From assembly GCA_020853775.1 (NCBI GenBank), contig JADYYH010000071.1, positions 1-52,467 on the forward strand: a stretch of 52,467 nt of DNA. Direction: 5' to 3'. The notes below the pieces were generated by a model, which saw only the letters and a program-made list of their open reading frames with translations, had not been told where the DNA came from and did no database searches. Shown here one piece after another: positions 18,136 through 20,101 of this stretch (position 1 is its first letter; each line of letters begins with the position of its first letter). This DNA is from Nitrospira sp. GTDB lineage: Bacteria > Nitrospirota > Nitrospiria > Nitrospirales > Nitrospiraceae. A program made the position numbers and the translations under genes.

Positions 18136-18273
18136 TCAGACGGTGAGGCGAGCGCGGCCCTTGGCTCTGCGACGAGCGATAACCTTGCGGCCGTTCTTTG
18201 TACTCATGCGCTTCCGAAATCCATGTTCCCGCTTGCGCTTGAGATTTGAGGGCTGTTTAAAAGTGAACGACAT
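18136..18273 (-). CDS. rpmH: 50S ribosomal protein L34
   Basis: A 45-residue basic protein starting [19 protein letters not shown] and continuing through the diagnostic [21 protein letters not shown] to a short tail. This is L34 of the large ribosomal subunit. An AAGGAG site precedes the ATG at 18273. It is the first gene of the leftward rpmH-rnpA-yidD-yidC run and has a near-perfect sigma70 promoter 45 bp upstream. Confidence 0.97.
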
Positions 18274-18317: not shown

Positions 18318-18346
18318 ATTATAGGGACGTCACGCAAGGGTGTCAA
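18318..18346 (-). promoter_or_regulatory. Strong sigma70-type promoter of rpmH
   Basis: Minus strand TTGACA (18341-18346), a 17-bp spacer and TATAAT (18318-18323) are both perfect consensus boxes. The predicted start of transcription is about 35-40 bp before the rpmH ATG. This is the strongest promoter I can see in the window, as expected for a ribosomal-protein gene. Confidence 0.85.
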
Positions 18347-18768: not shown

Positions 18769-19917
18769 ATGAGCCGCCCAGATCACCTCTGTCGCATCGT
18801 CACTCGCTTCATCCTCGTCGTTCTGTTGTCGATGAGTGTGGGTGGGTGCGTCGAAACCGTGCCTGAGGAATTGGTAGAAGCCATCGAGAGTCTGGACCGT
18901 GACCTGAGGACACTTCGGGCCTACGATGTCACGCCTGAAGACTATTCCAAGTTTTCCCGCCAATGGATTGCGTTGAATAATCGCATCCGATCGGAGGAGA
19001 ACATCGTCCGGTGGCCCTGGGAAGACAATGAGCTCGAAACCGATCTGGAAGCCCTTCAAGTCGAAGGCAGACAGCTCATGAGTGAAGTTACTAGCCGGAT
19101 TCAGGATCAGCGCACCACCGCCGAAACGAAATTGGCCAAAATCGAGCAACGGCTTCGCCTCCTGAACACCCGGGTAGGAGACATCGGCAGCCGTGTGGTA
19201 CTCGGGGAGCATCCTGTTGAAACTGAAGTGCACGTCAAACAGGCCCGCCTGTTCCTTGAGCAAGGACAATACGAACATTCGATCCAGGCCTCAGAGCGAG
19301 CCGGCAAAATTCTCCTGACTCAAACTGCACTGCTCACCAATGAATTAGGTCGATATGCAGACGATGATCTGATCGCGACCTGGCGGGAATCTGCGCAACG
19401 AACGATTGACTGGTCTCGAACGCATCGCGCCCAGGCCATTGTCGTCAGCAAGGCCGACCGCGTCCTCACCCTGTACAGGAACGGTCGTAAAGTACTGACC
19501 TATCCTATTCGATTAGGATCGAGAGGCATCCGGGCAAAACAACACTACGGCGATGGCGCCACTCCCGAAGGCGAATATCGTATTCAACGTAAACGCGGGC
19601 CCGGACAAACGCCCTACTTCCGCGCCCTCATTCTCGACTATCCCAATGTGGACGACCGTCGCCGATTCGAGGAAGCTCAGAAGGCAGGACTCATCCCCAA
19701 AAGCCAACACATGCCAGGCCTCATTCAGCTTCACGGCATCGCGCAAGGGATTTCCGATCAACCGTACGGCAGTATCGTGCTGGACAATCCGCAGATCGCC
19801 CAGCTTTTCGCTCAAGTCGCCGTGGGAACACCGGTCAATATCGTCGGCGCGTTAGAATCCCAGAACTCCATCTCGCTTGTGCTGGCAGACTTGGGTGATC
19901 AGGAAGAAGAAACCTAA
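18769..19917 (+). CDS. Lipoprotein with YkuD-like L,D-transpeptidase domain, catalytic Cys replaced
   Basis: A 382-residue exported protein. The signal helix FILVVLLSMSVGGC ends in a lipobox. A helical, charged middle region (about 30-220) is followed by a YkuD-like domain (about 225-375). It has the expected VVSKADRVLTLYRNGRKVLTYPIRLGS start, the GDGATPEGEYRI motif and the conserved LHG (His322). At the place of the catalytic SxGC motif it reads PYGSIVLDN, with Ser335 where Cys is expected (AGT codon). Active enzymes crosslink peptidoglycan or attach lipoproteins to it. This one may be a non-catalytic wall-binding or regulatory protein. It has no clear Shine-Dalgarno site. Confidence 0.8.
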   Translation: MSRPDHLCRIVTRFILVVLLSMSVGGCVETVPEELVEAIESLDRDLRTLRAYDVTPEDYSKFSRQWIALNNRIRSEENIVRWPWEDNELETDLEALQVEGRQLMSEVTSRIQDQRTTAETKLAKIEQRLRLLNTRVGDIGSRVVLGEHPVETEVHVKQARLFLEQGQYEHSIQASERAGKILLTQTALLTNELGRYADDDLIATWRESAQRTIDWSRTHRAQAIVVSKADRVLTLYRNGRKVLTYPIRLGSRGIRAKQHYGDGATPEGEYRIQRKRGPGQTPYFRALILDYPNVDDRRRFEEAQKAGLIPKSQHMPGLIQLHGIAQGISDQPYGSIVLDNPQIAQLFAQVAVGTPVNIVGALESQNSISLVLADLGDQEEET

Positions 19918-20019
19918 CGTAGTCGCGCCGCCGTTATCATCCCTCGCATCTGCGCTCCCGATCCTTCATCTGCCTCGGTTCTGCTCAATCCCCTCCGCAT
20001 ACCATCGACCTCTGCGCGT

Positions 20020-20048
20020 TTGCCTTTTCAATCTTACGAACCTAAGAT
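20020..20048 (+). promoter_or_regulatory. Candidate promoter of the pgi operon
   Basis: TTGCCT (20020-20025), 17 bp, TAAGAT (20043-20048), about 50 bp before the pgi start. The boxes are moderate matches; position and spacing support the call. Confidence 0.42.
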
Positions 20049-20101
20049 AAGACTCACCTGCGTGCATTGTCGTTCCTCCACCTCATGGAAGAGAGCGTGT
20101 T

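Follow-up and report, generated by a model that had tools for sequence, protein, structure and literature searches.

Proteins with a YkuD domain include both L,D-transpeptidases and hydrolases. Escherichia coli has both activities: LdtA-C are reported to attach Lpp and DpaA to remove it (PMC10653827). DpaA-like proteins (DpaA is also LdtF or YafK, the peptidoglycan meso-DAP protein amidase) and LD-carboxypeptidases are reported to lack the arginine that transpeptidases carry two residues past the catalytic cysteine, and the DpaA-like ones to be present across many Gram-negative bacteria, including some that lack Braun's lipoprotein (PMC8263019). Single substitutions are reported to abolish function: DpaA C143A is inactive (PMC8263019), DpaA K83A has no activity (PMC10653827) and LdtMt2 C354S gives no product (PMC11410929). 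Serine chemistry within this cysteine family is reported for Lpg1514 of Legionella pneumophila, a YafK-type YkuD protein with a lipoprotein signal peptide (PMC13400389).

The window, the whole 52,467-nucleotide stretch of Nitrospira DNA analysed here, encodes a YkuD protein (P0001) in which serine occupies the catalytic-cysteine position. The open reading frame, its coordinates and the placing of Ser335 and the LHG histidine, His322, had been given in an initial annotation and are confirmed. The features are as follows.

18769..19917, + strand: open reading frame of the Ser-form YkuD lipoprotein (P0001), 382 aa, with an orthologue in 28 of 29 genus genomes
18769..18849, + strand: signal peptide and lipobox VGG-C, Cys27 at 18847-18849
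18850..19413, + strand: N-terminal domain, residues 28-215, predicted mostly helical from the secondary structure of a low-confidence model
19432..19842, + strand: YkuD domain, residues 222-358, from the Pfam profile match
19537..19539, + strand: Lys257, aligned with Lys83 of DpaA
19732..19734, + strand: His322 (CAC) of the HG motif, His in 151 of 151 readable rows of the family alignment
19771..19773, + strand: Ser335 (AGT) in the catalytic-Cys column, from the sequence and the family alignment
19918..20101, + strand: gap before the next gene, the site of Ldt2 in relatives by locus comparison

The Pfam YkuD profile (PF03734) matches the protein with E 1.6e-15 and 58.4 bits (gathering cut-off 23.4); since profile positions 2-146 of 146 are covered, the match spans the active-site motif, which reads LHGIAQGISDQPYGSIVL with the HG motif intact. 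It is the sole match to PF03734 at E 0.001 in the genome. Two AlphaFold2 runs gave models of low confidence (mean pLDDT 49.4 and 35.3), and the YkuD fold is assigned from the profile match alone. The lipobox residues G26 and C27 are invariant in the 17-sequence alignment, and from this motif the product is a putative lipoprotein. A cysteine elsewhere in the active site, the alternative raised in the initial annotation, was not found: the whole protein has no further Cys after Cys27, and the 29 Ser-clade proteins have none in columns 28-382 when aligned to the window protein as reference.

On the opposite strand the gene is flanked by what we take to be yidC-yidD-rnpA-rpmH, and on its own strand by what are presumably pgi-pgl-glk, pgi being the gene that follows the 19918..20101 gap. 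The small ORF at 18136-18273 (- strand), beside rnpA, presumably encodes ribosomal protein L34 (rpmH); upstream of it, 18318-18346 (- strand) is a 12/12 match to a sigma-70-type promoter (TTGACA, 17, TATAAT). Neither form of the DnaA box sought, TTATCCACA or TTATNCACA, occurs in the window.

Among solved structures, the nearest to a profile of eleven Cys orthologues are 8ikr (E 5.6e-6) and 4xzz (E 0.002), which are DpaA and Csd6 according to PMC13400389 and PMC10653827. The NCBIfam DpaA model (NF040599) matches all eleven Cys members (best L078, 35.9 bits) and also P0001 (23.5 bits, E 2.4e-5), in each case under its cut-off of 365. The cysteine of 120 homologues aligns with that of the Csd6 TKGC motif inside one 15.9-bit stretch; the SIGC of DpaA is aligned with TLGC in the Cys relatives, but in a short piece without support of its own (-0.7 bits). 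Two residues past the cysteine, the Nitrospira Cys forms have mostly Met (96% of the set that also carries Ldt2, the neighbour described below), a few have Gln or Ala, and Arg is absent among the motifs listed; the outgroup forms have Ala (23 of 24) or Gly (1 of 24). In the window protein Val337 takes the place of the transpeptidase arginine. Because the residue pattern after the cysteine is that of hydrolytic YkuD enzymes, a YkuD 'transpeptidase fold' is not the same as a transpeptidase lineage, and by its alignments the Cys form resembles DpaA and Csd6, not transpeptidases. The 'L,D-transpeptidase fold' of the initial annotation thus stands as far as the YkuD domain goes, but the lineage is probably of the hydrolase type.

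The window protein shares with DpaA the YkuD domain, the lack of Arg two residues past the Cys column and a lysine: by an alignment-derived offset Lys257, which is Lys in 151 of 151 readable rows, faces DpaA Lys83. Unlike DpaA, it has Ser for Cys143, Tyr260 at the Gln86 position (throughout the Ser clade), an added N-terminal domain and a lipobox, and the overall similarity is weak. The LD-carboxypeptidases Csd6 (4xzz, 4y4v) and Pgp2 (6xj6, 6xj7) are hydrolytic YkuD enzymes; they keep the cysteine, match less well than DpaA and are marginally similar (Pgp2 against P0001, E 0.27). With the canonical L,D-transpeptidases (LdtE, LdtMt2 and the Ldt2 of relatives) the Pfam domain is held in common; where that Ldt2 reads THGCIR the window protein reads PYGSIV, with neither Cys nor Arg.

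Within the genus, column 335 is Ser in 27 of 28 orthologues and Gly in one (G026, an otherwise ordinary open protein with the Cys-form residues at 283 and 320); it is also Ser in G042, the single genome of the sister genus. The one genus genome that yielded no orthologue, G010, is assembled into about 1030 contigs at 88% completeness. Sixteen named records, which overlap with the genus genomes (14 titled Nitrospira, one Nitrospiraceae bacterium, one labelled Nitrosospira), hold orthologues at 81-93% identity. Ser335 is invariant in alignment A1, whose 17 sequences take in the complete chromosome of Candidatus Nitrospira defluvii (FP929003.1, L006) and the UBC2 chromosome (L001). Ser at column 335 is fixed in the lineage of the window, the condition on which the initial annotation had made its reading depend. 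The two sources of error it had named are both ruled out: a sequencing error at 19771, because the residue is the same in all 17 A1 sequences, a complete chromosome among them; and misalignment, because His322 and column 335 face the His and Cys of the 120 Cys homologues.

Of 152 loci, 120 have Cys at column 335, 29 have Ser, two have Gly and one has lost the column by a deletion. These rows are 151 of the 158 matching family genomes, from 175 searched, and one outgroup locus; seven genomes in which the gene is split or truncated were left out (G137, G155, G197, G199, G201, G202, G210). In the outgroup family, 20 stretches were searched and all 24 homologues read Cys, one stretch (L275) having no homologue; the outgroup locus G112 is counted among these 24 and again among the 112 loci with Cys and Ldt2. 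As 120 of 152 rows and 24 of 24 outgroup homologues have Cys, we take Cys to be ancestral at this column. The genus codons are AGC (21) or AGT (6) for Ser and GGC for Gly, and the Cys codons of relatives are TGC (82) or TGT (38), which fits the single base change TGT to AGT that had been proposed.

In most relatives the next gene downstream, in the same orientation, encodes another YkuD protein, shorter at about 213 aa and carrying the canonical IHG...THGCIRL motif; it is here called Ldt2. Its nearest NCBIfam models, LdtE, PRK10190 and PRK10260, are all labelled L,D-transpeptidase and score 34-37 bits, far under their cut-offs. By these sequence features, the locus pairs a YkuD protein of the hydrolase type with one of the transpeptidase type. 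In the outgroup 13 of 24 homologues adjoin Ldt2; 11, all Cys, do not, and for ten of these 11 Ldt2 lies on another stretch of the same genome. Four outgroup stretches (L257, L268, L270, L272) hold two YkuD copies of about 400 aa, one adjoining Ldt2 and the other 1 to 8 kb off without it, both with the Cys kept. A joint function of the two genes is argued from their adjacency and common orientation in most family loci and at the 13 outgroup homologues.

The whole-genome search of 175 family genomes gave no match to Ldt2 in any of the 29 genus genomes, so that a moved copy is rejected, and none in G042 or in G048, a genome with Gly at column 335. Thirteen of the 29 genus genomes hold 14 further PF03734 matches, with Gly (12) or Ala (2) two residues past the Cys, and none of the transpeptidase type with Arg at that position. 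A second YkuD gene, with the motif [IM]HGRDLPG..ASHGC[IV]GL, is present in 12 of the 29 genus genomes (L240-L250, L253) and in G042 (L254), and absent from the genome of the window. YkuD_2 (PF13645) gave no match in the 29 genus genomes, but as the control genomes were likewise without one, this negative carries no weight. A search for wider relatives on viral contigs found five stretches that fit a pattern, none of which was confirmed. Searches of the open-licence PMC literature listed no paper about the window protein or about Nitrospira YkuD lipoproteins that lack the Cys.

At 112 of the 152 loci a Cys form stands upstream of an intact Ldt2; at the 31 loci with Ser or Gly, an intact Ldt2 is never present. 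Five loci keep Cys without an intact Ldt2: it is absent in G198, G045 and G216, a remnant with stops in G204 and a short remnant in G205, whose own YkuD domain is missing about 27 residues in frame. Contig ends interrupt three further Cys loci (G062, G139, G153). One locus, G144 (L238), has an intact Ldt2 but has lost the motif through a 231-bp deletion relative to G132; the assembly is 80% complete, and the deletion may be real or an assembly fault. In L239 (G147, g6) the pattern is reversed, with no match to the 385-aa YkuD gene and Ldt2 reduced to a 113-aa piece. Loss of Ldt2 does not force loss of the cysteine, as shown by the five Cys loci and the 11 outgroup homologues without an adjacent intact Ldt2.

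In a protein tree from which the motif columns were left out, the Ldt2 state changes four times and the Cys state three times, each Cys change falling on a branch that leads to Ldt2-less genomes only. For these tests G144 (deletion) was set aside for the Cys state and G139 (contig end) for the Ldt2 state, and G062, with its Ldt2 on another contig, and G153, whose Ldt2 is divided between two contig ends, were scored as Ldt2-bearing. Branches to Ldt2-less genomes, stems included, make up 17.6% of the tree length, so that by chance all three Cys changes would fall on them with a probability of about 0.0055 (the cube), a rough figure because the branch lengths come from the same protein and losses may fall part-way along stems. 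The independent-pairs sign test gives a median p of 0.5, with too few pairs to reach significance. G048 falls together with G040, a genome carrying Cys and Ldt2; the placement of G048 as kin of the Ser clade, which would reduce two Cys losses to one, is rejected (p-AU 2e-5, 41-row subset). On this tree evidence G048 lost its Cys to Gly independently of the Ser clade.

One clade of genus g10 holds several states of the pair. G213 has it intact; in G204, G198 and G216 Ldt2 is broken or gone and the Cys is kept; G214 has Ser beside a remnant of Ldt2 (short pieces with stops); and in G205 the YkuD domain is damaged. Read from these loci, the order in g10 is partner first, nucleophile second. In the clade of the window and in G048 the two changes share one branch, so that the same order is there an inference. 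Neither gene was matched in nine genomes (G063, G067, G196, G203, G208, G209, G211, G212, G221); these, and the five g10 genomes in which just the N-terminal part is readable (G197, G199, G201, G202, G210), are not on the tree. In the latter five (L182, L179, L181, L184 and L183, respectively, for G197, G199, G201, G202 and G210) the N-terminal part remains readable at 62-68% identity after loss of the YkuD domain, and this form may be a gene or a remnant.

The coincidence of the two losses could in principle have an outside cause common to both, such as a change in wall chemistry or the loss of a wall-linked protein, the two enzymes never having worked on one substrate. The low power of the sign test works in favour of this explanation, but the two genes are neighbours in one orientation across most of the family and at over half of the outgroup homologues, and we consider it unlikely.

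Constraint was compared as median dN/dS over pairs with dS 0.2-1.2, which are not independent; the active-site stretches are residues 251-274 and 316-345. For 63 pairs within the genus, the N-terminal domain has a median of 0.072, the YkuD domain one of 0.032 and the active-site stretches one of 0.029. The same three regions give 0.102, 0.083 and 0.049 over the 297-299 pairs of a large Cys set; over the 48-49 pairs of the g10 Cys set they give 0.073, 0.055 and 0.043. All 28 genus orthologues have an open YkuD domain. Over a Ser-clade tree length of 1.28, 85 of 137 YkuD columns are unchanged, among them Lys257, His322 and Gly334; column 335 has one change. The window protein combines what marks a pseudoenzyme: a domain kept, a nucleophile lost and purifying selection. 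That constraint in the genus is strongest at the active-site stretches counts against an idle protein, because an enzyme would show the same.

Fixed differences separate the Ser clade from the Cys set with Ldt2 at eleven columns; all but one of these lie in the YkuD domain, a clustering of borderline significance (Fisher p 0.049). They include Q260Y (aligned with DpaA Gln86), F283Y (Tyr109), G316P, E320Q, T332P and C335S. G048 is altered at ten of the eleven, four times to the same residue (hypergeometric P 7e-6; 2.3e-5 without column 335), with Lys257 and His322 kept, which hints, without proof, that G048 and the Ser clade have changed along similar lines. At some of these columns change is simply tolerated, since G059, which has Cys and Ldt2, carries three of the changes (columns 244, 247 and 284), G045 is altered at four and G040 at one.

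The initial annotation left two possibilities: a wall protein without catalysis, or an enzyme that uses a new nucleophile. The second would make Ser335 the nucleophile of a serine hydrolase or acyltransferase of the wall, arisen once from a cysteine YkuD enzyme in the common ancestor of the genus and the sister genus, with residues 260, 283, 284, 315, 316, 320 and 332 re-set for the new chemistry or for a new substrate in a changed pocket. The near-uniform Ser of the genus and the Ser of the one sister-genus genome, the unchanged Lys257, His322 and Gly334, a YkuD domain more constrained than in either Cys set and the gathering of fixed differences within it all agree with such an enzyme, as does the serine-dependent beta-lactam hydrolysis reported for the YafK-family protein Lpg1514. 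In that protein, however, the reported serine is Ser132, which sits outside the cysteine site, and Cys174 is retained (PMC13400389). Ser at column 335 is also dispensable, judging by the Gly of G026 and the independent Gly of G048; it arose again in G214, among relatives in which the gene is decaying; and in LdtMt2 the same exchange, C354S, is reported to be inactive (PMC11410929). We regard a working serine enzyme as a distinctly unlikely outcome and, given the Gly in G026, the independent Cys losses and the lack of an intact Ldt2 at Ser and Gly loci, lean to the non-catalytic alternative. By analogy with LdtMt2 C354S and DpaA C143A, and with Gly accepted in G026, the Ser form is likely inactive.

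Plain decay would mean that the domain is being lost, and that it still looks conserved because too little time has passed or because the N-terminal part alone has a function. It fits the breakdown in g10 where Ldt2 is gone (five genomes with just the N-terminal part, nine genomes with neither gene) but is very improbable for the genus, where every orthologue keeps an open YkuD domain that is more constrained than its own N-terminal domain and has most columns unchanged over the Ser-clade tree.

The explanation we favour, which we hold to be probable though far from certain, is that a wall eraser fell idle once its writer was lost, and persisted as a binder without catalysis. The ancestor would have been a lipoprotein-anchored cysteine hydrolase of the DpaA/LD-carboxypeptidase type, paired with the adjacent Ldt2 as eraser to its writer; these roles in Nitrospira are suggested by weak similarity to the E. 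coli enzymes. Ldt2 would then have been lost in the ancestor of the genus of the window and the sister genus, hydrolysis would have become purposeless, and the nucleophile would have changed to Ser. The protein would have been retained with its domain, Lys257 and His322, and with altered residues that the DpaA alignment places near the pocket. It may now bind the stem peptides of peptidoglycan without cutting them, an eraser turned reader, and may thereby form a non-covalent link between outer membrane and wall in cells that would have lost the covalent one.

Relatives of enzymes that lack the nucleophile are a known kind of protein. What is new here is that the nucleophile was lost three times, in each case within lineages without the neighbouring transpeptidase gene, and that the retained form is under at least as much constraint as the Cys form. 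Loci with Ldt2 keep the nucleophile (112, the sole exception being the deletion in G144), which links the two functions and points to Ldt2 as the partner. The family thus offers natural stages, from the intact pair through loss of the partner and loss of the nucleophile to decay or long-term retention, and these allow one to ask why a dead-looking wall enzyme stays in one genus and goes in another.
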